In this document: positions 1 through 20,139 of the stretch, piece by piece
Position numbering within the stretch: the first letter of the stretch is position 1
How the letters are laid out: every line of letters begins with the position of its first letter
Source of the DNA: a virus
IMG/VR virus record: IMGVR_UViG_3300031757_000612
Coordinates: 1 to 21,389 of that record
DNA: 21,389 nucleotides
Direction: 5' to 3' (one strand)
Position numbers and translations under genes: made by a program
The notes under the pieces: generated by a model
Database searches by the model: none
What the model saw: the letters and a program-made list of their open reading frames with translations, nothing else
What the model was told of the DNA's origin: nothing

Positions 1-1610
1 TTGTAGATAATAAAGGTGATGCTTGGATTGAATCAAAAGGTAAGAAGTATTCACCATCACAAATATCTGCTTTTACTTTACAAAAAATGAAAGAAACAGC
101 AGAAAAGTATTTAGGTCAAGAAGTTACTAAAGCAGTAATTACAGTACCTGCATACTTTAATGACGCACAACGCCAAGCAACAAAAGACGCAGGTAAAATT
201 GCAGGACTTGAAGTTGAACGTATTGTTAACGAACCTACTGCGGCGGCACTTGCTTATGGATTAGACAAAAAAGCAGACCAAAAAATTGCTGTATATGACT
301 TAGGTGGTGGTACATTTGACGTATCTATCTTAGAAACTGGCGAGAGTGTATTTGAAGTTAAATCAACTAATGGTGATACATCATTAGGTGGTGAAGACTT
401 TGATAAAGTTTTAATTGATTACATCGCGAGTGAATTTAAGAAAGACCAAGGCGTTGATTTAATGAATGACAAACTTGTTATTCAAAGATTAAGAGAAGCG
501 GCAGAAAAAGCAAAGATTGAACTTTCTTCTACTATAGAAACAGAAGTTAATCTACCATTTATAACTGCTGACAAATCAGGACCTAAACACTTAAACGTAA
601 AAATTACAAGAGCAAAATACGAAGCACTAGTTGAAAAACTAATTGCAAGAACCCTTGCTCCTTGTAAAACTGCACTAAAGGATTCAGGTTATAAAGCTAG
701 TGAGATTGACGAAGTAGTTCTTGTTGGCGGAATGACTAGAATGCCTAAGGTACAAGAAACTGTTAAAAACTTTTTTGGTAAAGAACCTCACAAAGGTGTT
801 AACCCAGATGAAGTTGTTGCTCTTGGAGCCGCAATCCAGGCTGGTGTATTACAAGGTGATGTTAAAGATGTGTTACTATTAGACGTAACTCCTTTATCAC
901 TTGGTATTGAAACACTAGGTGGTGTAGCTACAAAACTTATCGATAAGAACACAACAATACCTACAAAGAAAAGCCAAACGTTTTCTACTGCTGATAATAA
1001 TCAATCAGCTGTTACAATTAAAGTTGTACAAGGTGAACGTGAAATGGCCGCAGACAATAAACTATTAGGAAACTTTGATCTAGTAGGAATTCCACCAGCA
1101 CCAAGAGGCATTCCACAAATTGAAGTTACTTTTGATATTGATGCAAATGGTATTGTTAATGTTTCAGCCAAAGATAAAGGAACTGGTAAAGAACAATCTA
1201 TCCAAATTCAAGCATCAGGCGGATTAAGTGATGCTGAAATTGATAATATGGTTAAAGAAGCTGACGCTAATAAAGAAGCTGATAAAAAGAAACGTGAAGA
1301 AGTAGATGTGCGTAATAGTGCAGATGGTCTTATTCATGCTACAGAGAAGTCATTAGAAGAACATGGTGACAAAGTAACAGCTGAAGACAAAGAAGCTATA
1401 CAGACAGCTCTAAGAAGCTTACAGGACACCTTAAAAGACGAAACTGATGTTGAAGCAATTAAACAAAAAACACAGGATCTAAGTCAAGCGTCTATGAAGC
1501 TGGGTGAAGCTATATATAAGAGTCAGCAAGAGGCTGAAAAAGAACCAACAAAAGAGGAAACGAATGACGACGTTGTTGATGCGGATTTTGAAGAAGTAGA
1601 TAAGAAGTAA
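1..1610 (+). CDS. dnaK: DnaK (Hsp70) chaperone, 5' partial
   Basis: ATP-dependent chaperone that, with DnaJ and GrpE, folds and remodels cytosolic proteins; phage relatives could support capsid assembly or host takeover. The reading frame is already open at base 3, so the first ATG at 87 is internal: about 95 N-terminal residues of a normal ~640-aa DnaK lie left of the window and about 535 are visible. Seen: the nucleotide-binding motif [10 protein letters not shown] (about nt 297-327), the adenosine-site [13 protein letters not shown] (about nt 718-757), the substrate-binding domain with [10 protein letters not shown], and the C-terminal end [14 protein letters not shown] typical of proteobacterial DnaK. 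Wording such as [17 protein letters not shown] and [12 protein letters not shown] matches alphaproteobacterial rather than enterobacterial DnaK from memory. It is followed after 33 bases by clpS. No frameshift is seen. Confidence 0.97.
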
Positions 1611-1643: not shown

Positions 1644-1952
1644 ATGATAAGTAATGTTATGGATGTAGAGATCGACGAAAAAATTAGGCAAAAGATTCTT
1701 GAACCTGACTTATATAAAGTCATTTTCTTAAATGATAATGCAACTCCTATGGAATTTGTTATAGATGTTCTTATCCAAATCTTTAAACACTCCGACACTA
1801 CTGCACGTGATCTTACAGTTAAGATACATGAAGAAGGCTCTGCAATTGTAGGTGTATATACTTACGAAATTGCAGAACAAAAAGGTGTTGAAGCAACTAA
1901 TTTGAGCCGTACACATGGATTTCCTCTACAAATAAAAGTGGAGAAACAATGA
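1644..1952 (+). CDS. clpS: ClpS-like adaptor (N-degron recognition)
   Basis: ClpS binds proteins with destabilising N-terminal residues and hands them to ClpAP. The 102-aa product has the core of the family: LNDNATPMEFVIDVL (residues 29-43) and the strand with H62 (VKIHEEGSAIVGVYTYEIAE). Against E. coli ClpS, N34, D35 and H66, which hold the substrate alpha-amino group, correspond to N30, D31 and H62; D36 is replaced by N32. The gatekeeper Met and the C-terminal ClpA-contact region look present. The start has a strong ribosome binding site (AAGGAG, about 1631-1636). The stop overlaps the heme oxygenase start as ATGA, so it is translationally coupled to the bilin genes. No ClpA gene is visible, so it would have to use host ClpA or act as a decoy. 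Confidence 0.92.
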   Translation: MISNVMDVEIDEKIRQKILEPDLYKVIFLNDNATPMEFVIDVLIQIFKHSDTTARDLTVKIHEEGSAIVGVYTYEIAEQKGVEATNLSRTHGFPLQIKVEKQ

Positions 1953-2494
1953 GTTTAAAAGAATTAACAAAAGATGTTCACGGTAACGCTGAACGACAAA
2001 GTTTTGTCAAAGTTTTAATGTCTGGAGAAATTGATCCTGAGCTTTATGCGATGTTTTTAGCAAATCAACATCCAATGTATGATGTGCTAGAAGCACTTGC
2101 AGGGGCTAAAGGATTGTTAAACGACTTACCAGATATACGTAGGGCACCAGCTATTCATGAAGACTATAAAGAATTATGGACTTCTGATGAACCAGCGCCT
2201 ATGCTCGATGTTACTAAAAAATACTTAGATCATATTCGTGGAATACAAGACGATGAAGTAAAACTATTTGCACACGTCTACACAAGACACATGGGTGATT
2301 TAAGTGGGGGCAAGATGATAGCATTAAAAGTACCAGGTGAAGGGCGACTATATAAATTTAAAGAGCCTGATACTTTAAAAGCAAAAATACGTGAACGGCT
2401 AACAGACGATATGGCTGATGAATCGAAAATTTGTTTTGAATTTGCTACTCAAACATTTCGAGAGATGTTGCCCTATGTCAAGTCATCAAGTTAA
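1949..2494 (+). CDS. ho1: Heme oxygenase (heme to biliverdin IX-alpha)
   Basis: Opens heme to biliverdin, iron and CO using ferredoxin or another reductant; first step of bilin synthesis. The 181-aa protein has the proximal heme-ligand histidine in LTKDVHGNAE (H11) and the distal-helix signature YTRHMGDLSGG (residues 111-121), matching HO-1 YTRYLGDLSGG. It lacks the long C-terminal extension of plant and animal enzymes and is shorter than the roughly 220-240 aa common in cyanobacteria. The start overlaps the clpS stop by 4 bases and the 3' end overlaps the halogenase start by 20 bases. The bilin reductase three genes downstream is its expected partner. Known relatives: heme oxygenases carried by marine cyanophages and by the non-cyanophage marine phages that carry pcyX. 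Confidence 0.93.
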   Translation: MSLKELTKDVHGNAERQSFVKVLMSGEIDPELYAMFLANQHPMYDVLEALAGAKGLLNDLPDIRRAPAIHEDYKELWTSDEPAPMLDVTKKYLDHIRGIQDDEVKLFAHVYTRHMGDLSGGKMIALKVPGEGRLYKFKEPDTLKAKIRERLTDDMADESKICFEFATQTFREMLPYVKSSS

Positions 2495-3992
2495 ATCAAT
2501 ATGTATAGCAGGTGGCGGTTCATCAGGTTGGTTAACGGCCGCTCATGCTCTACATCTTTTTCCATCTGATATAAAAGTTACATTAGTTGAAAGTCCTAAT
2601 ATTCCAATCATTGGAGTAGGTGAAGCAACATTATTAGGATTTGACAAATTCCTTACTAACGAATGCAACATTCCTTTTGAATTATGGACAAAAGAATGTG
2701 ATGCCACGATTAAACTAGGAACAAAGTTTACTAATTGGTTTGCCGATGGCTTAGATATATGGGCACCGTTCTTAGTCCCTGTAATTTTAGGCGAAGACGA
2801 GCACCATTATGATTTACTTGACTTGGCTCTAAAAGCGAACATTACAAAACCAGACTTTTATTCAACGTGTGCGGCTTGGTGGGAAATTTCTGTAGAAGAT
2901 AAAAAGATTCCTTCTACAGCAACACTAGGTGGTCCTGACTCAGGGGCTCACGGAGTAGCTTACAATTTAGATGCAATAAAGTTAGCAAACTTTTTAAGTA
3001 AATGGTGTAATAAAAAATATCCATACTTAACACATATTAAAAAACATATAGACAAACCTGTTATTAAAAATGGTAATGTTGATCATTTAATATTAGAAGA
3101 CGGCAGTACTATTCATGCTGATGTGTTTATAGATTGTACTGGATTTAAAAAACTATTATCAAATGCAATAGAAGGAAGTGACTGGCGTGATCATAGTGAT
3201 ATGCTGTATATTAATTCAGCAGTTGCTAGTCAAATTAATTACAAAGATGACGAAGAACCTCAACACCCATACGTAGACGCTACTGCCCACGACTTAGGTT
3301 GGATTTGGAAAACTCCTATTAAAGACAGAATAGGTAGTGGATTATGTTACAACAATACGATTACAACAAAACAAGAAGCTGAAGATGCCTTTGTACAACA
3401 TTGGGGTAAAGATAGATTAAGAACAGGTGAATTTAATCACATAAAATTTACTCCAGAATATAATGCAAAAAATTGGCGAGGTAATGTTATTCCAGTAGGA
3501 TTGTCTAGCGGATTTGTTGAACCATTAGAATCATCTGGACTAGGTTTAATGACTCTTAGTATGGCTCCACTTGCAAGTTGTTTAGTACATGGGGAATATA
3601 CAGATACTGACCGAAATGCTTATAATGACGTACTTGCATTTACTTACCAGAACACAATAGACTTTATAGGATTACACTATTTTAATAATCCACGAACCGG
3701 TGCTTTCTGGAAGTTAGTTGCAGAAAAATATGATGCCACAGAATCTTTATTTAATTCCCTTAAAGCTCTTAAAATAACAGCAACTCATACCCATCAGAAA
3801 CAATACTATCCTAGAGCTACCGGACTTTTTCATGAATGGAATTGGAAATTATGGGCATACGCAACTGGAATAGGAACTAAGACTTGGGATATGAATGAAG
3901 ACGAGGCTTTAAAACATATTAATCTAATAAAAGACAAAGATAGAAAAGATTCTTACCCTGGAATAGAAAATAGAAAATGGATACATAGATGA
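2475..3992 (+). CDS. Flavin-dependent (tryptophan-type) halogenase
   Basis: FADH2-dependent halogenase of the PrnA/VirX1 superfamily; makes HOX that is passed to a lysine near the substrate. Seen in the 505-aa product: FAD-binding GGGSSGW (13-19), VGEATLLG (48-55), the catalytic lysine K80 in ATIKLGTKFTNW (PrnA K79), a slightly altered WxWxIP motif (WIWKTP, 'T' for 'I') and FVEPLESSG with E352 (PrnA E346). The start at 2475 is preferred over 2418, which would lie 77 bases inside heme oxygenase. The stop overlaps the next gene as ATGA. A marine phage halogenase (VirX1 of cyanophage Syn10) is known to have broad substrate range with a preference for iodide. The substrate here is unknown; its position between heme oxygenase and bilin reductase makes a tetrapyrrole-linked role worth testing. 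Confidence 0.93.
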   Translation: MSSHQVKSICIAGGGSSGWLTAAHALHLFPSDIKVTLVESPNIPIIGVGEATLLGFDKFLTNECNIPFELWTKECDATIKLGTKFTNWFADGLDIWAPFLVPVILGEDEHHYDLLDLALKANITKPDFYSTCAAWWEISVEDKKIPSTATLGGPDSGAHGVAYNLDAIKLANFLSKWCNKKYPYLTHIKKHIDKPVIKNGNVDHLILEDGSTIHADVFIDCTGFKKLLSNAIEGSDWRDHSDMLYINSAVASQINYKDDEEPQHPYVDATAHDLGWIWKTPIKDRIGSGLCYNNTITTKQEAEDAFVQHWGKDRLRTGEFNHIKFTPEYNAKNWRGNVIPVGLSSGFVEPLESSGLGLMTLSMAPLASCLVHGEYTDTDRNAYNDVLAFTYQNTIDFIGLHYFNNPRTGAFWKLVAEKYDATESLFNSLKALKITATHTHQKQYYPRATGLFHEWNWKLWAYATGIGTKTWDMNEDEALKHINLIKDKDRKDSYPGIENRKWIHR

Positions 3993-4756
3993 GAATAGCT
4001 GGTGCACAAATACCTTGTTCTAAAGATGTCGATAAAAATCTTATTACTATTAAACAAGCAATTGACTGGTCTGTAGATAACGACTGTGATTTTCTTGTAA
4101 CTCCAGAAGGATCTTTAAGTGGATACCTAGCAGAGTTTGATATTGACGCAACTGTTAAAGGACTTGCTGACATTGAAAAATATGCTAAAGAAAAAGAACT
4201 TGGTTTATGCCTAGGAACCCTTTGGGTTGAAAAAGAAGATATAGGTGACATTAGAAGAAATCAAATTAGATTTTATGATAGACAAGGTTGTTTTTTAGGA
4301 GCGGCTAATAAGACTCATGGTGTTAAACCAGACGAGTCTTTTTTAATGAACGACATTGTAAAAGACGGAATTAAGGTATATAGATTACTTGGTAATTCTG
4401 ACACTGGTCGTCAATATGTTAATGTAGTTGGATTAATATGTAATGATTTATGGCCATCTGGTGTTCAGAGCATACCCCACATAGCAGAGAAACAAGGTGT
4501 GAACCTTTTAGTTCACAGTTCTAATGGGGCTAGAGGAAATGTTAGAGACAATTTATATGATGATTGGCACAATGCCCATTTAAGAATGGTCAGTCATAAT
4601 TCACAACTTCCAATTATAACTGTTGATAATATATATCATATTAATGGCGAATTTTATGATGGGCCTACAAGTAGTCCAAGTGGTGTTGTAATAGACGGCG
4701 AATGGGCCAAACAAGTTCCTCGGACAGGAACACAATATTTTTACTGGGATTTTTAA
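3989..4756 (+). CDS. Carbon-nitrogen hydrolase (nitrilase superfamily)
   Basis: Cleaves a non-peptide C-N bond (amide, nitrile, carbamoyl) or, in some branches, forms amides. The 255-aa protein carries the full catalytic triad in the usual order and context: E40 in FLVTPEGSLSGY, K108 in GAANKTHGV and C151 in GLICNDLWPSG. The length fits a single-domain amidase with no attached NAD synthetase. The ATG overlaps the halogenase TGA, and only one base separates its stop from the bilin reductase start, so it is a coupled member of the heme-to-bilin operon. Nothing in the sequence fixes the substrate; a bilin propionate amide or a nitrogenous halogenation product are guesses. It could equally be a general amidase for nitrogen scavenging. 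Confidence 0.88.
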   Translation: MRIAGAQIPCSKDVDKNLITIKQAIDWSVDNDCDFLVTPEGSLSGYLAEFDIDATVKGLADIEKYAKEKELGLCLGTLWVEKEDIGDIRRNQIRFYDRQGCFLGAANKTHGVKPDESFLMNDIVKDGIKVYRLLGNSDTGRQYVNVVGLICNDLWPSGVQSIPHIAEKQGVNLLVHSSNGARGNVRDNLYDDWHNAHLRMVSHNSQLPIITVDNIYHINGEFYDGPTSSPSGVVIDGEWAKQVPRTGTQYFYWDF

Positions 4757-4757
4757 T

Positions 4758-5453
4758 ATGAGCGTACTATGGAATAAACTAATACAAAGTCAAGAAGATA
4801 TTATTAGCATCTTTGAAGAACAAGCTAAAGAAATACAAGAACCAGGTATGGATCATTTTAATCAGCCCGACGGAGGCTGGATTAATAGAGTATGGGCTAA
4901 TGATAATATACGTAGAGCTCATATTGACGTAGTAGATGCACGTGAGTCAAAAGGTCTTTGGATGATGCACGTATGCTGTTTTCCTGTATTAAATAATGAC
5001 GGTCCTATATATGGATTTGATGTTATATCTGGTAAGAACAAAATGACTGGTGCCTTCCATGATTTTTCAGCTTCTTCTGGTGGTGAAGATCATCCACTAG
5101 TAGAGTGGTTTGAAAACGAAGTTAAAGAATTTATTCCAAGCAAAAGGCGTGAATTACCCCAATGGGCATTAAACATCTTTACAGATAGTTTTATTGCCGC
5201 AGGTAATGTTCAAGATGAAGAAGAAGCTACAGCTATAATAGACCTAGCAGTAAATAACCTAAAAGTTTACTTTGAAAGTATAGGGCAATATGCAGGTATG
5301 GGCGATACTGCTATAACTACTGCTTCACAAAACTATTACTGTGATAATCAACAACAAAACCCACATACACCACGGGTAATGACTAGTTTAGGCCTTAATG
5401 AAGCTGACGTACAAAAGTTTTGTACGGATATGCTATTCCCTAAAATAGTATAA
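4758..5453 (+). CDS. pcyX: Ferredoxin-dependent bilin reductase, PcyX/PcyA-like
   Basis: Reduces biliverdin to a phycobilin using ferredoxin. The 231-aa product matches the PcyA/PebS fold length. Its core LWMMHVCCFP ... GPIYGFDVISG ... TGAFHDFS carries H71 and D88, separated by 17 residues exactly as the PcyA catalytic pair H88 and D105. The glutamate E76 of PcyA aligns, with a two-residue insertion, to D57 (RRAHIDVV). PcyX enzymes from uncultured marine phages, described as PcyA-related but making phycoerythrobilin, are the closest family I know; PcyA or PebS activity cannot be excluded. It is the last gene of the clpS-ho-halogenase-nitrilase operon. Its TAA stop lies inside the late promoter motif of the next gene. 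Confidence 0.88.
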   Translation: MSVLWNKLIQSQEDIISIFEEQAKEIQEPGMDHFNQPDGGWINRVWANDNIRRAHIDVVDARESKGLWMMHVCCFPVLNNDGPIYGFDVISGKNKMTGAFHDFSASSGGEDHPLVEWFENEVKEFIPSKRRELPQWALNIFTDSFIAAGNVQDEEEATAIIDLAVNNLKVYFESIGQYAGMGDTAITTASQNYYCDNQQQNPHTPRVMTSLGLNEADVQKFCTDMLFPKIV

Positions 5454-5464: not shown

Positions 5465-7063
5465 ATGCGATTCTATGAATTTAAAACAACTCTGATTGAA
5501 GTTACAGGTATTTCTTGGGGTAAAATTGCCGGGAAAGGATATGAAGAAACTCGATTACCTAACTTTTTAGATTTTCTAACTACACAAAAACCATTTACAA
5601 CTGTAGATGGACATAAATTTGTACCAAGCCCAGGACAAGCAGAGGCGTGGAAACAGTATGCAGGAAATCCACAGTCAAAGACTAACCCTGAGGGGTCCCC
5701 AAACCCAAGAACAATAAACGGTACAGTATTTGCTCCAGATGACGATAAAGGCCAAATAGCAAACTTAAATCTATCGCAAATAGCAAAAACTAATGAGCCA
5801 TTTACAGGTGGCCAAGCTAAAGCCTGGGATCAAGATGACTCAGAAGCAGGAAAAGAATATATTAAAGGTAAAACAGCACATTTAGATTTACACGGTGAAG
5901 AAGGTGATGCAGAAGCAGAAGCTAAAGCAGTTAAATCAGCAGAAGAGCTTATTAGCGAAAAAGGTATTCCTGGTAACGATTTAGTAAATGTATTAATCAA
6001 CAATCCCTTATTGAATAGTAAAGAAGCACAACCGCACGGTGCATGGATTGTTAATATTGCAAAAGCAATTTCGTCTAGAGAATATCCAGTTCCAATTACT
6101 GAAGAAATATTTGATAAAAAAAATAAAAAAATAAGAAGTTTTATACAAGACTATGCAGGTGAATATCTAGGCATAGCAGGACTTGTTCATGACCTAGGTG
6201 ATTTCCCTAATAAAGATGCTTTTTTACAATTTTTAGATGCTACTGATATGAAACAATTATCATATTATTTTCCATCTGCACAAAATACTCCATTAGCAGA
6301 TAGTTTTGGTTATATTAAAGCCCCAAGTGGTGCAACGCATATGAAGATATCTAGTAAAGGTGGTACTACAGGAGCGGCTCCAAGTTTAGCAAATTTAAAA
6401 ATAACTAACGAAATTGAGAATAACGAAAAATTTGCAGGAAGTGGTGCTATACAATTTCTAAAAGCAATTCAAGAAGTAGCAAAAGGTAGTAATGCTCAGA
6501 TTACTGGTACATTAAGAGCTATAAATTTAATGCACCAACTTCATCAAAAAGAAGACCCTATCCAAGATAAAGAACTTAAAGCAATACTTCCATTAAGTGA
6601 CGACGAAATTACTTGGTTTAATACTGCATTTAATCAAGAGTCTAAGTTTAGAAAAGAAAATGTAGGACAAAACTATATTAAGGAATTTCCAGAACGCTTA
6701 CAGCCTTATGTAGTACAAAGGCAAGACAAAGCAGACAAAAAAGAAATACCAGGAGTAGGGAAAGAACCATATATGATTCAATCAAATGTTGGCGATTTTA
6801 TAATGGAATGCACAAGACAAATTATAGCTGGCATTAATAAACACGGAGCATTTCCGAAATTTGAACCGATGGCGAAAGAAATACTTGGTTATAATTTTAT
6901 GCAGATATTTACAAGGGTATCAGCTGGTAAAGGAAAAGCAAAAAAAGGTAGAGGAATGTCGTTCAGAGTACTATGGCCAGCTAAAATTGGTGGCAACATA
7001 GAGTTATGGAGTAATAGTTCGCAAACTAGAATGAACGGTCGAATTGGATTTAGAATTCATTAA
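5465..7063 (+). CDS. Unknown 532-aa late protein
   Basis: I do not recognise this protein with certainty. It begins MRFYEF, a type of N-terminus common among marine T4-like phage proteins. The first 120 residues hold a repeated motif, PGQAEAW (56-62) and GGQAKAW (115-121), each after a PFT segment, followed by a charged, low-complexity stretch (EGDAEAEAKA). The middle has a strand-like MKISSKGGTTGAAPS followed by helices; the C-terminus is basic and aromatic (GKGKAKKGRGMSFRVLW ... GRIGFRIH). No signal peptide or membrane segment is seen. The TATAAATA promoter directly upstream says it is made late, so a virion or packaging-linked role is plausible. The ISSKGG segment could also belong to a nuclease-like fold, but I cannot show the acidic catalytic residues. 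Confidence 0.85.
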   Translation: MRFYEFKTTLIEVTGISWGKIAGKGYEETRLPNFLDFLTTQKPFTTVDGHKFVPSPGQAEAWKQYAGNPQSKTNPEGSPNPRTINGTVFAPDDDKGQIANLNLSQIAKTNEPFTGGQAKAWDQDDSEAGKEYIKGKTAHLDLHGEEGDAEAEAKAVKSAEELISEKGIPGNDLVNVLINNPLLNSKEAQPHGAWIVNIAKAISSREYPVPITEEIFDKKNKKIRSFIQDYAGEYLGIAGLVHDLGDFPNKDAFLQFLDATDMKQLSYYFPSAQNTPLADSFGYIKAPSGATHMKISSKGGTTGAAPSLANLKITNEIENNEKFAGSGAIQFLKAIQEVAKGSNAQITGTLRAINLMHQLHQKEDPIQDKELKAILPLSDDEITWFNTAFNQESKFRKENVGQNYIKEFPERLQPYVVQRQDKADKKEIPGVGKEPYMIQSNVGDFIMECTRQIIAGINKHGAFPKFEPMAKEILGYNFMQIFTRVSAGKGKAKKGRGMSFRVLWPAKIGGNIELWSNSSQTRMNGRIGFRIH

Positions 7064-8322: not shown

Positions 8323-8889
8323 ATGAGCGCCAAGAAAATAGAAGATTTTACAGCCTTAGACAGAATCGAGATCAAGCTTCTCGAAAACCATACCCATTAT
8401 CTTTCAGGTGAACTTACTGAAGAAAATGTTGGCGAAGCAGTCAAGTGGATTTTGTTCGAAAATCTAGAGAAGAAACCTAAAAAAACTTTAACACTTTATA
8501 TCAATTCAACTGGTGGCGATTTATACGAAACATTTGGTTTAATTGATGTTATGCGTGATTCATATCATAATATTTCTACTGTAGGTATTGGTGCTATAAT
8601 GAGTGGAGCCTTTCTTATTTTTGTTATGGGTTCACAAGGCAAAAGATATATTGGTAAAAATACAGGAATTATGAATCACCAACATAGTGATGCAGTTGAT
8701 GCCAAAATGCATGATATGAAAGCTCAAATGAAAGAGAATTCTAATTGTGAACTAAGATGTCTTACATTATTACGTGAAGCATCAGGAATGACTTTACAAG
8801 AAACACGCAAAAAATTGAATACTCCTTCAGATCAATACTTTACTGCCAAAAACTTGGTAGATCTTAAATTAGCAGACCACATTTTATAA
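8323..8889 (+). CDS. clpP: ClpP-like serine protease
   Basis: Self-compartmentalised serine protease of the ClpP family. The 188-aa protein shows the ClpP core: TLYINSTGGDLYE (57-69), GIGAIMSGAFLIF (88-100) with nucleophile S94, GIMNHQHSD (115-123) with H119, and TPSDQYFTAKNLVDLKLADHI with D170. S94-H119 spacing is 25, as in E. coli ClpP; a gap-free alignment keeps the serine although the following GAF is shifted by one. No obvious propeptide. The gene follows a late-type TAAATA motif and has no Shine-Dalgarno. It might act as a head-maturation protease or as a phage ClpP working with host ClpX/ClpA and the phage ClpS encoded 6.7 kb away. Confidence 0.92.
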   Translation: MSAKKIEDFTALDRIEIKLLENHTHYLSGELTEENVGEAVKWILFENLEKKPKKTLTLYINSTGGDLYETFGLIDVMRDSYHNISTVGIGAIMSGAFLIFVMGSQGKRYIGKNTGIMNHQHSDAVDAKMHDMKAQMKENSNCELRCLTLLREASGMTLQETRKKLNTPSDQYFTAKNLVDLKLADHIL

Positions 8890-12324: not shown

Positions 12325-12684
12325 ATGCATTGGTATATAATTTTTATCTTTTATTTAGGAAACACTCCAAATACATCGCCGCCAGCTTATATTGAATACA
12401 AAAAAGAAATTTTTACAAATAGATGGGATTGTGCAACGTACTTAGAAGAACATAGAAATGAATTACTTGAAGGAATATTACAAGCCCAACCAAATATTGA
12501 TAAAGTTCGTTCTAACTTATTATGTGTAGATGAAAGAAAATTAAAAGAATTGGAAGAATCGAATGACAGAGTTAAGTACAGAAAGTATATTAAACACAAT
12601 GCCCCTGTAGCTGAGTGGTTTAGCAAGGTCTTTGTAAGTCCTAGACGGGGGTTCGATTCCCTCCGGGGGCTCCAAAACGCATAG
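12325..12684 (+). CDS. Possible exported small protein; 3' end contains tRNA-Thr
   Basis: Function not recognised. The start at 12325 is preferred (AGGAG about five bases upstream) over an in-frame ATG at 12265 inside the previous gene. The 119-aa product opens with a short hydrophobic stretch (WYIIFIFYLG) that may be a signal or anchor, then a soluble domain with two cysteines (WDCATYLEEH and NLLCVDERK), which would fit a disulfide in the periplasm. The frame stays open through tRNA-Thr (12601-12674), so the last 27 residues, including PRRGFDSLRG, are encoded by tRNA sequence. Either the tail is tolerated, or this gene is normally shorter and the tRNA landed in its end. Confidence 0.65.
   Translation: MHWYIIFIFYLGNTPNTSPPAYIEYKKEIFTNRWDCATYLEEHRNELLEGILQAQPNIDKVRSNLLCVDERKLKELEESNDRVKYRKYIKHNAPVAEWFSKVFVSPRRGFDSLRGLQNA
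12563..12591 (+). promoter_or_regulatory. Likely sigma70-type promoter for tRNA-Thr, inside a CDS
   Basis: ATGACA (12563-12568), 17-bp spacer, TATATT (12586-12591), ending 9 bases before the tRNA. The same -10 to tRNA distance is seen at the tRNA-Arg promoter. Confidence 0.6.
12601..12674 (+). tRNA. tRNA-Thr (anticodon UGU)
   Basis: A 74-base cloverleaf with encoded CCA. Acceptor GCCCCTG/CGGGGGC with one G-T pair, D stem GCTG/TAGC, anticodon stem AGGTC/GTCCT with a T-T mismatch in the fourth pair, loop TTTGTAA giving anticodon UGU (reads ACA), T arm GGGGG-TTCGATT-CCCTC, discriminator T. It is nested in the end of the CDS at 12325-12684. ACA is a plausible A-ending codon for an AT-rich phage to support. 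Confidence 0.85.
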
Positions 12685-14715: not shown

Positions 14716-14886
14716 ATGAATATCATCGCCGCCTTAATAGTAATTCTATTTCTATCTGGATGTACGAAGACAGTTAGCTATATAAAGTCGTGCGACACAT
14801 ATACAGGAGTATCAATACACGGAAGTTCACCAAATGAACTTGTAGATAATGCAATACCACAAGTCACAGTTTCCTGCCCAATTTAA
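14716..14886 (+). CDS. Small lipoprotein, 56 aa
   Basis: A predicted lipoprotein: hydrophobic signal MNIIAALIVILFLSGC with lipobox LSGC and lipidated cysteine at residue 16, leaving a mature part of about 40 residues with two further cysteines (SCDTYTG, SCPI) that could form a disulfide. The start at 14716 is used because the longer in-frame ATG at 14659 is inside the terminator hairpin, and because a late motif sits just before 14716. Function unknown; an outer-membrane spanin subunit is one possibility for a late phage lipoprotein but no partner spanin is visible. It overlaps the SET gene by 38 bases. Confidence 0.75.
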   Translation: MNIIAALIVILFLSGCTKTVSYIKSCDTYTGVSIHGSSPNELVDNAIPQVTVSCPI

Positions 14887-15349
14887 AAAATTTTGGTATA
14901 AGAAAAGATCCAAAGTACACGGGACCGGTCTCTTTGCTAGTAAGCATATTCCAAAAGGCACAACAATTATAGAATACACAGGCGAAAAAGTTAAAAAGAA
15001 AATAGGATACAAACGAGCTGACAAGCATCTTCCTAAAGTATGGATATTCGAATTAAGTCATCATTATCTTATTGATGGTAAATTTCCACGAAACCACGCA
15101 AGACTAATTAATCATTCATGCGAGCCAAATTGTGATATAAAAATTAAAAAAGATCATATTTGGATATACGCAAAAAAAAATATTAATAAAAATAAAGAAT
15201 TAAATTACAACTACGGTTATGACTACGACAGAGATGACATACTTGATCATCCTTGTAGATGTGGATCACCAAAATGTGTAGGCTATATTGTAGAACAAGA
15301 CCAATGGCCTAAACTCAAAAAGTACCTAGCAAAAACGCATACCTTATAA
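14849..15349 (+). CDS. SET-domain protein (putative lysine methyltransferase)
   Basis: Predicted SAM-dependent protein lysine methyltransferase. The 166-aa protein is almost only SET domain: VHGTGLFASKHIPKGTTIIEY (start of SET, 23-43), RLINHSCEPNC (85-95, the SAM-binding pseudoknot motif), KELNYNYGYDY (116-126, catalytic-tyrosine region) and a post-SET zinc-type cluster CRCGSPKCVG (136-145). All core motifs look intact. The N-terminus is basic. The target could be a host or virion protein, or bS21-like ribosomal proteins. It is expressed after the late lipoprotein gene, which it overlaps by 38 bases. Its TAA is embedded in the next late promoter. Confidence 0.9.
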   Translation: MQYHKSQFPAQFKKFWYKKRSKVHGTGLFASKHIPKGTTIIEYTGEKVKKKIGYKRADKHLPKVWIFELSHHYLIDGKFPRNHARLINHSCEPNCDIKIKKDHIWIYAKKNINKNKELNYNYGYDYDRDDILDHPCRCGSPKCVGYIVEQDQWPKLKKYLAKTHTL

Positions 15350-15970: not shown

Positions 15971-16482
15971 GGGTTATTTGCCCAAAAGAAGTTAATAAAA
16001 AATACTTTAGTTTTGAAAAACAAAAATATAAAAACGATCTTAGCATTTATGTTAATGATGCTATTGTATTTTCGCATATAAATGATGCCGAAGAGTGTTT
16101 ACCAATAACACTTGAAGAACCTATTAGTCTTGACGAAAATAAAGAACATACAATTAAATGTGTATATGATGTTTTATTTGATACAGTTAACGAAAAAGTA
16201 GATATAATTTTTAAATTAAAAACGAATGGTGTTTTAGAAACTAGTATTCATAGGCATAATTTTGTAGAAGGAAGCGAAACACTAGATAGTGATTTTTTAA
16301 TAACGTTTGTAATTAACGACCAAAAAACATTATTAGGTAAAGAATATCATGAAGGCAATACTGCAAACATAACGTTTGATAATTACTACACGTATCCTTT
16401 AAAGATTAAATGGGGTAGTAAGAAATCCTTTACTGATACAGAAAACGTATATTGGGACGACATTGAATTGAGGTTAGAATAA
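15955..16482 (+). CDS. Beta-rich 175-aa protein, unknown
   Basis: Not recognised. The protein lacks signal or membrane segments and is rich in alternating strands (LSIYVNDAIVFSH, EHTIKCVYDVLFD, VDIIFKLKTNGVLE, DFLITFVINDQKT, ANITFDNYYTYPLKIKWG). It ends with TDTENVYWDDIELRLE. The strand pattern resembles a jelly-roll or carbohydrate-binding-like module. It is embedded between the oxygenase and the aminotransferase with overlaps of 16 and 1 bases, so it is probably needed in stoichiometric association with that pathway, as an accessory or substrate-carrier protein. It could also be a virion protein, given late expression. Confidence 0.75.
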   Translation: MPKRIRVICPKEVNKKYFSFEKQKYKNDLSIYVNDAIVFSHINDAEECLPITLEEPISLDENKEHTIKCVYDVLFDTVNEKVDIIFKLKTNGVLETSIHRHNFVEGSETLDSDFLITFVINDQKTLLGKEYHEGNTANITFDNYYTYPLKIKWGSKKSFTDTENVYWDDIELRLE

Positions 16483-17588
16483 TGAATTACGATGGTCTAA
16501 TACCAGAACAGCAAAAGCCTGTACAGCCAGCACACCCACATTGGCGTTACGGAACTATTGAAGACGGAGTTAAAAAGATTGACCCGTTACTACACTATGG
16601 CTGTTTTACATTAGGGTTTGAATATCCGCAAATTGTTGATAAAGTTTGTGAAGTAGTAAAAAATATCAAACCTGAAATTGCTGAAGTTGTTGGAACTACT
16701 GATTTAAGACTTAACCAAGTAAGTTACCAACTACAAGATAAACTTTTCAAAGTAACAGGCGGGTATAATAGCTTTTATGCTTTATCTGGTAGTGATGCAA
16801 ATGAAGGTGCTGTTAAACTTGCATCTGCTTATCATCATACACTAGGGAATAAGGATAAGAAAAAGATTGTAACACTTAATCCAAGCTACCATGGAAGTAC
16901 GTATCTTACTAGTTCATTAGGATGTGAATCGTTAATGGTTGATCCTTTTTATACATTTGAAAAATTCAGCGGAGTAATACGAGTTGATAGAGACTTCGCA
17001 GAAGATTCAATTGACTGGAAAGAAGTAGGTGCAATTATGGTTGAAACCTGTAGCTATAGTGACATCATGACACCTTTTACTGAAGAGTTCTGGAATAAGC
17101 TAACATACATTCAACAAAATTATAATGTATTAATTATTATAGATGACATTTTTATAGGTGGCGGCAAAACAGGACACTATTGTGGCTGGAAACATTTACC
17201 TATTGTTCCGGATATCTTTACAATGGGCAAAGCAATTACTGCCGGGTTCTTTCCGTTAAGTGCTACATTTTATAATTCAAAAGTTAAAAGCACATTACCC
17301 GACGACTTTAAATGGGAACATGGATTTACATATAATTTTAGTATTCCTGGAGTTGTAAGTGCTTTAGAATATTTAGATATTGTACACAACCAAGAACATT
17401 ACGAGCGTCAAGCTGAAATATGTAATCGTGCTAGAAAAACATTTCTTATTAATGGGTTTGATATTGTTAATACATTTGGAACTTACTTTTTAGTTGAAAA
17501 GGGTGACTTCATGAATCTATATATGATGCCTTTAAATGCTGATGACGAATACTTTGAAACATTAAGGCAAGAGTTATGCACATTGTAG
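16482..17588 (+). CDS. Class III PLP-dependent aminotransferase
   Basis: Moves an amino group between an omega-amine or aldehyde/ketone and an acceptor. The 368-aa protein has the class III signature: ALSGSDANEGAVKLA (100-114, phosphate-binding), SYHGST (135-140), IIIDDIFIGGGKTG (218-231, D221 to the pyridine nitrogen) and DIFTMGKAITAGFFP (244-258) with Schiff-base lysine K250. It is shorter than the usual ~430 aa; the N-terminal and C-terminal subdomains are trimmed. The substrate cannot be read from sequence. Its operon partners are two oxygenase-fold proteins and an amidinotransferase, which suggests making an amine that is then guanidinylated. It overlaps the following gene by 13 bases. 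Confidence 0.92.
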   Translation: MNYDGLIPEQQKPVQPAHPHWRYGTIEDGVKKIDPLLHYGCFTLGFEYPQIVDKVCEVVKNIKPEIAEVVGTTDLRLNQVSYQLQDKLFKVTGGYNSFYALSGSDANEGAVKLASAYHHTLGNKDKKKIVTLNPSYHGSTYLTSSLGCESLMVDPFYTFEKFSGVIRVDRDFAEDSIDWKEVGAIMVETCSYSDIMTPFTEEFWNKLTYIQQNYNVLIIIDDIFIGGGKTGHYCGWKHLPIVPDIFTMGKAITAGFFPLSATFYNSKVKSTLPDDFKWEHGFTYNFSIPGVVSALEYLDIVHNQEHYERQAEICNRARKTFLINGFDIVNTFGTYFLVEKGDFMNLYMMPLNADDEYFETLRQELCTL

Positions 17589-18115
17589 AAAACTTTTTAA
17601 GTGCTGACGAATACAAACAGTTTACATCTTTAGTATCAAACTGTACTGAGAAAGAAGTAGGCGAAGCACACTACAATGATGATAACGCTATCCAAGGATT
17701 TGATAACTCCGCTTATATTATAACTACACCTGAATTCCAACAATGGTGGCTTGATATATTAAAATCAAAAAATTATATTAAAGATACAGTACTGCCAAGG
17801 GATATTGTAAGTTTATATATTTTAGAAACAAAACCACCTTACCATGCAAATTGGCATCGTGATAGTTTGCCTGAAGAAGAACTGGATTTAGGTAGTATTA
17901 TATTATACTTTGGAGAGAATCTTAATGTACACGATGGTGGATTATTTCTAACAAAAGAGAATGAAAATGATATACACGGCCAATGGGTTTTACCAACAGA
18001 TAATGTCTGTACTATAAATCCAAAGGACGTTATGCACCTAGTTACAAAATATGAGAATAAAGATATAGTAAGGAAGATAGTTATAATGTTCCTAAGACAA
18101 AGAGACTTCACATGA
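17576..18115 (+). CDS. 2OG-Fe(II) oxygenase
   Basis: Predicted 2-oxoglutarate- and iron-dependent oxygenase. The 179-aa protein opens with HIVENFLSADEYKQF, a common start for phage P4H-like enzymes, and carries PYHANWHRDSLP with H94-x-D96, VMHLVTKY with H154 and VRKIVIMF with R166, in the standard order. DGGLFLTKE (120-128) is the 'GG-L' strand of the fold. It overlaps the aminotransferase by 13 bases and the amidinotransferase by 4 bases (ATGA), so the three enzymes are translationally coupled and probably act in one pathway. Substrate unknown. Confidence 0.87.
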   Translation: MHIVENFLSADEYKQFTSLVSNCTEKEVGEAHYNDDNAIQGFDNSAYIITTPEFQQWWLDILKSKNYIKDTVLPRDIVSLYILETKPPYHANWHRDSLPEEELDLGSIILYFGENLNVHDGGLFLTKENENDIHGQWVLPTDNVCTINPKDVMHLVTKYENKDIVRKIVIMFLRQRDFT

Positions 18116-19179
18116 TTTATACAGAATTTGATCCGTTACAAGAAGTAATTGTAGGTGACAGTTATTCACCAGGAGATATAGATCATCTATTGCCTAAAAG
18201 AAGTCTTATAGGCTTTAATAAAATACTAGAAGAAACAAAAGAAGATTTAGAAAATTTAAGCACACAACTAAAGAACTTAGGTGTGAAAGTGCATAGACCA
18301 AAAGTATATAAATTTGATAAGTCTATAGCTATGCCTAGATTTGATATACCACTACCAATGAGTCCTTTAGTACCAAGAGACGCTTATATTGTTAGAGGCA
18401 AAACAGTTATTCAAACATATACAAGTTTAACTGATAGATACTTTGACAGTCATTCTTATTATCATATTTTTAAAGAACTATTTGATCAAGGGTATAACTG
18501 GCTCAGTCAGCCTTCACCTATGTTAAAAAATTTAAACCAAACAGAGCAATGGTTTTTTGATAAGAACATTTATGTAAGAGAACTTAACGATAAAGTCCTT
18601 TGGCATACAGCAACGATGTTTCAAGCCGGCGATGCTGTAATTGTAAACAATAAAGGTCCAGGTACACAAGCCGGATTAGAGTGGATGAAACGTAACCTAC
18701 CAGATACTAGATTTATAAACGATGAAAATAATATATTTGAAAACTTTGGACATATTGATCATGGCTTTATTTTAATAGATGACGAAACTGTTATCCATGC
18801 TGGAATAGAGTGGGTACCTGATGCATTAAAAACAAAAAAATTAATTGATATAAAAAAATACTTGCCCGAACTTAAATTAGATAGGTTTAAACATGACTAC
18901 ATTGAATCAGGTGGTACATATGATGTAAAATGGGTACAAAAATATCTTGAAAGCTGGCAGGGTTATAATCAAGAAGTTTGTTTTGATCTTAATGTATTAA
19001 TACTTGATAGTAAGAATATCTTATGGGGTCGTGAAATACCTGAACTATTTAAATATCTTAAAACACTAGGTATTGAAAGTTACGTAGCACCTGTACGACA
19101 TTCGTTGTTTTGGGAAGGTGGTATACATTGTTCTACATTAGATATCAAACGCAACGGCAAGTCTAGAACAATTATCTAA
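18112..19179 (+). CDS. Amidinotransferase (glycine/inosamine amidinotransferase family)
   Basis: Transfers an amidino group, usually from arginine, to an amine; relatives make guanidinoacetate or guanidinylated cyclitols (StrB1). The 355-aa protein begins FDPLQEVIVGDSYSP and has the catalytic trio in order: MFQAGDAVI with D174, FGHIDHGFI with H214, and the nucleophile C340 in GGIHCSTLD. MPRFD (74-78) and the repeated beta-beta-alpha pattern fit the pentein fold. The length is close to StrB1 and AGAT. It is last in the late operon; its TAA interlocks with the TAG of the minus-strand gene. The guanidino acceptor may be the amine made by the neighbouring aminotransferase. Confidence 0.93.
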   Translation: MIYTEFDPLQEVIVGDSYSPGDIDHLLPKRSLIGFNKILEETKEDLENLSTQLKNLGVKVHRPKVYKFDKSIAMPRFDIPLPMSPLVPRDAYIVRGKTVIQTYTSLTDRYFDSHSYYHIFKELFDQGYNWLSQPSPMLKNLNQTEQWFFDKNIYVRELNDKVLWHTATMFQAGDAVIVNNKGPGTQAGLEWMKRNLPDTRFINDENNIFENFGHIDHGFILIDDETVIHAGIEWVPDALKTKKLIDIKKYLPELKLDRFKHDYIESGGTYDVKWVQKYLESWQGYNQEVCFDLNVLILDSKNILWGREIPELFKYLKTLGIESYVAPVRHSLFWEGGIHCSTLDIKRNGKSRTII

Positions 19180-19613
19180 TAATCCATTATTTCTTTTAAG
19201 TATTTAGAATCCCAATAACTGTAATATTTTGTTGTCTTGAGCTTTGCTCTTGCTTCTTCTAGTTCTTTCTTATTCTGAACAAGAATACAAGGATAAAAAT
19301 TGTTATTAGTTTGAACTCCGTTAATGTACGTTTTATGTTCAGGATGGTCAGGTAAAAATATCATATCTGTATGTACGTCTTTTAACTGTTGACAAATATT
19401 CGTAAGTACATCAAAAGAACTAGTTTTTGATAATTCTATATGTACTTGTACTGGTACATTGGTAACTACTTGAAAGTTTTCATACTTAAACATTTCATGT
19501 TCTATAACTTTAGGATTAGGTCTAGCAAAAGGACATAGGCTTTGTCCGCCAAGTTCATCTCGCGGAGCCATAACGTGTTCAATCCATTTATTGATATTTT
19601 CAAACGCTAACAA
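19176..19613 (-). CDS. LCPFA-motif protein (DUF1415-like), unknown
   Basis: Not firmly recognised. The 145-aa product has KWIEHVMAPRDELGGQSLCPFA (K9-A30 region) reminiscent of the bacterial DUF1415 family, where a tryptophan helix precedes 'LCPFA'; C27 is the only residue of that motif that looks catalytic. The rest is mixed alpha/beta (QVVTNVPVQVHIELSK, DMIFLPDHPEHK, NFYPCILVQNKKELEEA). It starts at TTG 19613 with GGGAG seven bases before it, overlapping the SpeD-like gene by 14 bases, so it is co-translated with it. An internal ATG (residue 15) would lose the helix. Its function is tied by context to the AdoMet decarboxylase. Confidence 0.72.
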   Translation of the reverse strand: MLAFENINKWIEHVMAPRDELGGQSLCPFARPNPKVIEHEMFKYENFQVVTNVPVQVHIELSKTSSFDVLTNICQQLKDVHTDMIFLPDHPEHKTYINGVQTNNNFYPCILVQNKKELEEARAKLKTTKYYSYWDSKYLKEIMDY

Positions 19614-19968
19614 GGTCGGTCTCCCTATCTAAAAATTTATACTTTACGTCAATAGGGTTAAATTGGTTAAAAAGTTCTAATACTATATCTACCTTAAAGT
19701 CTTGACAACTGTAAACGTCTAATTGTAGTTTATTAGGAGTTTCTTCAGTCCATAAATGCAAAGCAATATGTGATGTTTCGATTATACAAAATGCTGTAAT
19801 ACCTTTATTACCAATTTTTTCCGTATTCAAAGATATTGGACCATGTAAAATTTTCATACCAATAGCATCTACTAAATTACTAATCCAAGATGTTATAAAA
19901 GATTCTGTACAGTCAGATTTGGTAATTGTCGAAGATATTAATAGGTGTTTATGTTTATGGGTCAGCAC
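19600..19968 (-). CDS. speD: S-adenosylmethionine decarboxylase-like (SpeD)
   Basis: Class 1B AdoMet decarboxylases cleave themselves to make a pyruvoyl group and supply decarboxylated AdoMet for spermidine. In this 122-aa product the core is CIIETSHIALHLWTEE: S66 is the pyruvoyl serine, H71 the processing histidine, and C88 in LDVYSCQD the proton donor (S63, H68, C83 in Thermotoga). The residue before the serine is T instead of E, which may alter processing. The N-terminus HKHLLIS is typical. The GTG start at 19968 lies 4 nt after a late motif; a longer frame from 20115 is rejected because it covers tRNA-Arg. Several T4-like cyanophages carry speD. Confidence 0.83.
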   Translation of the reverse strand: MLTHKHKHLLISSTITKSDCTESFITSWISNLVDAIGMKILHGPISLNTEKIGNKGITAFCIIETSHIALHLWTEETPNKLQLDVYSCQDFKVDIVLELFNQFNPIDVKYKFLDRETDLVSV

Positions 19969-19972
19969 GAAG

Positions 19973-19980
19973 TATTTATT
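19973..19980 (-). promoter_or_regulatory. Late promoter motif AATAAATA (minus strand)
   Basis: Reads AATAAATA on the minus strand, 4 nt before the GTG of the SpeD-like gene; back to back with the plus-strand tRNA-Arg promoter at 19991. Confidence 0.65.
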
Positions 19981-19990
19981 AATAAAGTAT

Positions 19991-20019
19991 TTGACAAAAG
20001 CCAAAAAAGAATGTACAGT
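19991..20019 (+). promoter_or_regulatory. Sigma70-type promoter for tRNA-Arg
   Basis: TTGACA (19991-19996), 17-bp spacer, TACAGT (20014-20019), ending 8 bases before the tRNA. Confidence 0.8.
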
Positions 20020-20027
20020 ATAAAGAC

Positions 20028-20104
20028 GGACCCGTAGCTCAGTTGGATAGAGCGTTGGTTTGCGGAACCAAAGGCCAGGAGTTCGAATCTCTTCGGGTCC
20101 GCCA
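20028..20104 (+). tRNA. tRNA-Arg (anticodon GCG)
   Basis: A 77-base cloverleaf with encoded CCA. Acceptor GGACCCG/CGGGTCC, D stem GCTC/GAGC, anticodon stem TTGGT/ACCAA, loop TTGCGGA giving anticodon GCG (reads CGC and CGU), T arm AGGAG-TTCGAAT-CTCTT, discriminator G. Bacterial CGN decoding normally uses anticodon ACG edited to ICG, so an unedited G34 is unusual. Confidence 0.92.
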
Positions 20105-20139
20105 TAACGTAGCACTATATAAGACTAGTAAGGAGTTAT

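Follow-up and report, generated by a model that had tools for sequence, protein, structure and literature searches.

A clade of flavin-dependent halogenases encoded between heme oxygenase and a PcyX-type bilin reductase in marine phages

Marine T4-like phages carry hemO-pcyX cassettes as well as cassettes comprising hemO, pcyA/X and alaS, as exemplified by Pelagibacter phage Mosig EXVC030M (PMC11480375). Here, we analysed a virus record of 21,389 bases (IMG/VR IMGVR_UViG_3300031757_000612), referred to as the window, in which a flavin-dependent halogenase and a nitrilase-family hydrolase are encoded between heme oxygenase (HO) and a bilin reductase. The cassette and the two genes flanking it are as follows:

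3..1610, plus strand: dnaK, upstream of the cassette, its 5′-end cut by the record (PF00012, 4.5e-227; NCBIfam DnaK)
1644..1952, plus strand: clpS (N-degron adaptor), the constant first gene of the cassette (PF02617, 1.8e-27)
1949..2494, plus strand: heme oxygenase, predicted to convert heme to biliverdin (Heme_oxygenase PF01126, 5.8e-20)
2475..3992, plus strand: flavin-dependent halogenase of 505 amino acids, ATG at 2475 (Trp_halogenase PF04820, 3.2e-89)
3989..4756, plus strand: carbon-nitrogen hydrolase of the nitrilase superfamily, an optional member (CN_hydrolase PF00795, 1.6e-11)
4758..5453, plus strand: PcyX-type ferredoxin-dependent bilin reductase, predicted to convert biliverdin to phycoerythrobilin (Fe_bilin_red PF05996, 3.6e-14; PcyX 5OWG, phmmer 9.1e-82)
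5465..7063, plus strand: protein of 532 amino acids, 11 bases 3′ of pcyX, without a match in Pfam or PHROG

An earlier sequence-only reading had described a five-gene block at positions 1644-5453, and the open reading frame (ORF) calls reproduced its coordinates and spacing exactly, with overlaps of 4, 20 and 4 bases between clpS, HO, halogenase and nitrilase, followed by a 1-base gap before pcyX. The Pfam, PHROG and PDB searches are concordant with the gene names of the cassette. However, of the 27 junctions between same-strand genes in the window, 14 show an overlap or a gap of at most one base. As half of all junctions are equally tight, such packing is ordinary here, and the argument that the overlaps prove a pathway was therefore dropped. 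ho and pcyX, which are usually directly adjacent, are separated in the window by 2.26 kb containing the halogenase and the nitrilase. Thus, the oddity of the cassette is its gene content, which recurs in other phages, rather than its spacing.

The assignment of a heme-to-bilin enzyme pair was confirmed by the family matches and by the catalytic residues retained. The reductase is of the PcyX type and not a PcyA, as it matches PcyX (5OWG) with 277 bits (9.1e-82) compared to 49 bits (4.5e-12) for PcyA. His71, Asp88 and Asp57 are invariant in 83 cassettes. Alignments with PcyA and 5OWG place His71 and Asp88 at the positions of PcyA His88 and Asp105, and Asp57 replaces PcyA Glu76, as is characteristic of PcyX. 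HO keeps the proximal His11, Asp117 and the MGDLSGG motif of the distal helix, as expected for the HO-1 fold. PcyX homologues are known to generate phycoerythrobilin from biliverdin (PMC11480375). By analogy, HO would open heme to yield biliverdin, and PcyX would subsequently perform a four-electron reduction to the pink pigment phycoerythrobilin; judged by the activity of these homologues, we regard this conversion by the two window enzymes as highly probable. Moreover, a 5-aminolevulinate synthase is encoded in 4 of the 13 halogenase-bearing records and in three others, suggesting that halogenase-bearing phages also feed tetrapyrrole synthesis, which agrees with the hemO, pcyA/X, alaS cassettes mentioned above (PMC11480375). 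In the respective records (those behind loci L002, L008, L013, L030, L034, L047 and L051) this gene is located outside the cassette.

The catalytic residues of the halogenase, which the sequence-only reading had deemed intact, are indeed invariant in homologue alignments: K80 and E352 are present in all of 12 cassette halogenases and 43 diverse halogenases. Likewise, the flavin adenine dinucleotide (FAD) motif GGGxxGW and the sequence WxWKTP, which stands in place of WxWxIP, are invariant across the clade, as expected for flavin-dependent halogenases. The AlphaFold model has a mean predicted local distance difference test score (pLDDT) of 90.9, and its best fold match is Thal with a template modelling (TM) score of 0.84-0.87. 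From these features, the protein is very probably a competent enzyme using FADH2, O2 and halide.

PrnA grips tryptophan via Y443, Y444, E450 and F454 (PMC5659210). In the cassette clade the residue equivalent to E450 is L, M or I, so that this contact is lacking, and the profile similarity to tryptophan halogenases fades beyond approximately residue 430. Both observations render free tryptophan an unlikely substrate. For the lid region (residues 435-453) the model shows a loop of low confidence without a predicted helix, with a pLDDT of 57 for the block 441-450. The phage homologue VirX1 is without a helical lid, has a larger pocket and accepts diverse substrates (PMC7948982). A tetrapyrrole substrate would be compatible with these features.

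Next, the neighbourhoods of the bilin genes were compared. The PcyX scan of IMG/VR returned 207 relatives, of which the best 80 loci were taken for the counts. clpS is located 5′ of ho, and ho 5′ of pcyX, in all 80 loci; 19 of these loci carry a halogenase in the ho-pcyX interval. A single-protein scan of IMG/VR with the window halogenase gave no match, so that an alignment scan was needed. The halogenase census thus comprises an alignment scan of IMG/VR together with three single-protein scans from both subclades, one with the window and the other with L027, and represents a lower bound. It revealed at least 23 contigs encoding a halogenase at least 52% identical to that of the window. ho is directly upstream in 23 of 23, and pcyX is downstream in 22, the remaining contig ending inside the halogenase gene. 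Among the matches listed, the cassette halogenases (≥52%) are set apart by an identity gap from the next best (≤36%), and neither ho nor pcyX was seen in the loci of the latter. Moreover, each of the 13 whole halogenase-bearing records checked contains one Trp_halogenase copy, that of the cassette. Hence, the proposed conservation of gene order in marine viral contigs stands for ho-halogenase-pcyX (23 contigs), whereas the full order ho-halogenase-nitrilase-pcyX is limited to three distinct cassettes.

Phylogenetic analysis placed the cassette halogenases in one clade (SH-aLRT, an approximate likelihood ratio test, 100) that lies within the phage halogenases, VirX1 branching more distantly; the nearest bacterial halogenase found is 34% identical. 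On a cassette tree built from clpS, HO and PcyX of 55 distinct cassettes, 13 of which carry the halogenase, its presence is explained by 2 changes, compared to 11.7 for shuffled labels. The halogenase tree and the cassette tree are nearly identical in topology (Mantel r 0.85, p 1e-4), and the ratio of nonsynonymous to synonymous substitution rates (dN/dS) of 0.08-0.29 indicates purifying selection. In addition, the cassette halogenases share 38 clade-specific invariant positions; R447 and K458 are residues specific to the clade as well. In HO, positions 86, 88 and 90 alone track the presence of the halogenase, which may merely follow the tree. Taken together, the agreement of the trees, the two changes and the dN/dS values suggest a halogenase that entered long ago, has been kept by selection and occurs in only one part of the cassette family, and we consider its long-term residence likely. 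Accounting for this distribution, one T4-like marine phage lineage would have extended the clpS-ho-pcyX cassette with a dedicated flavin-dependent halogenase.

The nitrilase shows a different pattern. Its triad E40, K108 and C151, which the sequence-only reading had likewise deemed intact, proved invariant in 43 phage homologues, and the model (pLDDT 94.5) has the α-β-β-α fold of the nitrilase superfamily, matching D-carbamoylase and N-carbamoylputrescine amidohydrolase. The window protein has the fold and the E-K-C triad in common with these enzymes; it differs from the solved amidases in its low identity (13-19%), its shorter length and its membership in a phage-specific family with the annotation 'unknown function' (PHROG 36475). 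Seven of the 55 distinct cassettes contain a nitrilase, and in only three of these (the window, L001 and L003) does it accompany a halogenase. It occurs without a halogenase in L004, L063, L064 and L072 among the best 80 PcyX loci and also in L170; conversely, L002, which belongs to the same clade as the window, has the halogenase and no nitrilase. Nitrilases were inserted between ho and pcyX on at least two occasions, one concerning the window group and the other L063/L072. Their dN/dS is 0.26. Their relatives reside for the most part elsewhere than in bilin cassettes, many of them in tandem: L180, L186, L203, L207, L232 and others carry two or three PHROG 36475 genes in a row. On these data, the nitrilase looks like an interchangeable addition to the cassette; its probable reaction is the cleavage of an amide or carbamoyl bond, and it probably performs no core step. 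A product shared with the other cassette enzymes seems improbable. Consequently, the 'amidated bilin' suggested by the sequence-only reading was rejected as the leading explanation, since C-N hydrolases cleave such bonds, no ATP-dependent ligase is present, and a gene that is frequently found without the halogenase and mostly outside bilin cassettes backs this idea poorly.

The nearest isolate cassette is that of Mosig, whose PcyX and HO share 54% and 45% identity, respectively, with the window proteins. In Mosig ho and pcyX are adjacent and a halogenase is absent, in contrast to the halogenase and nitrilase inserted in the window; likewise, the region 5′ of the cassette contains dnaK-clpS in the window and 2-oxoglutarate (2OG) oxygenases and ferrochelatase in Mosig. 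As in Mosig-type cassettes, alaS is present in several records related to the window, though elsewhere in the record. VirX1 of cyanophage Syn10 and the halogenases of S-SSM7, P-SSM2 and HTVC008M belong to the same Pfam and PHROG family, possess the catalytic Lys and Glu and are without a predicted helical lid. However, they are at most 36% identical to the cassette clade, and no bilin genes were seen in their neighbourhoods. In Pelagibacter phage HTVC008M (L326, 2421-5995) the gene of this distinct halogenase is found in the interval that separates the two terminase genes (small and large), beside a phytanoyl-CoA dioxygenase. Thal, RebH, PrnA and PyrH share the fold (TM 0.84-0.88) and the catalytic motifs of the cassette halogenase, which differs from them in the absence of the Trp-binding Glu and apparently also in the lid region. 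In the literature searched, with most subscription papers outside reach, we found no paper reporting a halogenase together with pcyX, in agreement with the earlier statement that no described pathway is known to combine phage ho/pcyX with a halogenase. One report treats heme oxygenase, bilin and flavin-dependent halogenase as separate cyanophage genes (PMC10452541). Thus, the ho-pcyX cassette and, separately, phage halogenases are already known, and the new element is the halogenase clade dedicated to the cassette.

A halogenase-bearing record of 117.5 kb encodes DNA polymerase B, a clamp loader, a baseplate wedge protein, ribonucleotide reductase (RNR) and PhoH, and the polymerase, clamp loader, baseplate wedge and RNR point to a T4-like phage. 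Searches of the halogenase-bearing records for the Mosig terminase, for gp23 (PF07068) and for Terminase_6N (PF03237) came back blank, which is uninformative since the records are incomplete. A SAR11-like host would be suggested for the window phage by Mosig only. dnaK is located 5′ of clpS in many halogenase-bearing loci, and clpS always adjoins the bilin genes. Together with DnaK (3-1610), ClpS (1644-1952) and ClpP (8323-8889) in the window, the ClpA-like protein and DnaJ of the 117.5-kb record (L362-L366) may make up a full viral set of chaperones and N-degron/Clp protease components. The 532-amino-acid protein downstream of pcyX is probably co-transcribed with the cassette, though outside the pathway; in L004 its place is taken by an ORF of 476 amino acids that begins similarly (MRFxEF). 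L004 also encodes, in the space separating its nitrilase from pcyX, a second, apparently degenerate HO (2629-3255; GNLEHGD replaces MGDLSGG) and a 2OG-Fe(II) oxygenase (3252-3923), and L065 (6190-7996) encodes two mutually related proteins of about 300 amino acids between ho and pcyX without a Pfam match. Further downstream, the window contains a SET-domain protein (14849-15349; PF00856, 7.5e-23), a class-III aminotransferase (16482-17588), a 355-amino-acid protein of an uncharacterised phage family that resembles an amidinotransferase by eye (18112-19179) and an S-adenosylmethionine decarboxylase (19600-20115, minus strand), and the genes at 16482-20115 may serve polyamine or guanidino metabolism. 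Two tRNA genes, tRNA-Thr (tgt) and tRNA-Arg (gcg), are located at 12601-12674 and 20028-20104, respectively.

What, then, does the halogenase modify? The most economical, though unproven, reading of these sequence data is that it modifies the tetrapyrrole produced by the two neighbouring enzymes, to which we assign a probability of roughly 0.4. Every β position of biliverdin is substituted, so that an electrophilic halogenase would have to attack a meso-CH or vinyl carbon. As no change in PcyX tracks the halogenase, modification after the PcyX step would be the simpler order if a bilin is the substrate, and the electrons and the reduced flavin would be supplied by the host. Ferredoxin (PF00111) was not found in the viral-contig records; one protein in L362-L366 matches PHROG 3704 'ferredoxin' (5e-103), and Pfam Fer2 gives no match there. 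Several points weigh against a tetrapyrrole substrate. The gene neighbourhood is the sole link of the halogenase to bilins, 42 of the 55 distinct cassettes do without it, and PcyX shows no residue specific to halogenase-bearing cassettes. Many non-bilin halogenases also have a hydrophobic residue in place of E450, neither a flavin reductase (PF01613) nor a phycobiliprotein (PF00502) was found in the viral-contig records, and no precedent for a halogenated natural bilin emerged from the literature searched. Furthermore, the trees would agree in the same way if the genes had simply been inherited together at a fixed locus within one phage lineage. Finally, clpS, encoding a protease adaptor, is linked even more constantly (80 of 80 PcyX loci) without being a bilin enzyme, and thus linkage alone makes no pathway.

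The latter point equally favours an explanation to which we give the same weight, leaving the remainder to other substrates: the ho-pcyX gap may be an insertion site for auxiliary metabolic genes tolerated within a co-transcribed block, in which case halogenase and nitrilase would act on unrelated host small molecules, peptides or surface glycans and share only the timing of expression. In keeping with such a hot spot, the slot is also filled by a nitrilase alone, 2OG-type oxygenases, a degenerate second HO or small ORFs. Elsewhere, the S-SSM7 halogenase adjoins sugar genes, that of HTVC008M is inserted between terminase subunits, and a nitrilase of Synechococcus phage Sf-FS3 resides among fucosyltransferase genes. 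However, among the matches listed the halogenase clade (≥52%) is found in IMG/VR only between ho and pcyX, it remains under purifying selection while other contents of the slot turn over, and none of the 13 records checked has a second halogenase. A tryptophan or indole halogenase whose product in infected cells would serve as a signal or resemble an antibiotic would fit the nearest solved enzymes, which are tryptophan halogenases such as Thal; given the replaced glutamate, the fading profile, the lid without a predicted helix and the breadth of substrates accepted by VirX1, we consider it unlikely. We are just as doubtful of the four-enzyme pathway of the sequence-only reading, in which the nitrilase participates to yield a halogenated, amide-modified bilin. 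The gene order in three cassettes and the repeated entry of nitrilases into the gap speak for it, but the two genes are found apart in both directions (halogenase alone in L002; nitrilase alone in L004, L063, L072 and L170), most of the nitrilase family lies elsewhere, and its fold breaks rather than makes amides.

Should the halogenase indeed act on the tetrapyrrole, the phage would encode the conversion of heme into an open-chain tetrapyrrole carrying halogen, with halogenation following or preceding the reduction, and might thereby provide non-photosynthetic marine bacteria with a new class of pigment or a bilin-derived effector during infection; this extension is slightly more tentative than the substrate assignment itself. 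The restriction of this halogenase clade to the bilin cassette joins two questions, namely the role of bilin cassettes in hosts without known phycobilisomes and the natural substrate of phage halogenases. If the product is not a halogenated bilin, the locus points to a hot spot for the insertion of auxiliary genes; if it is, halogenated bilins would constitute a new class of natural products of viral make.

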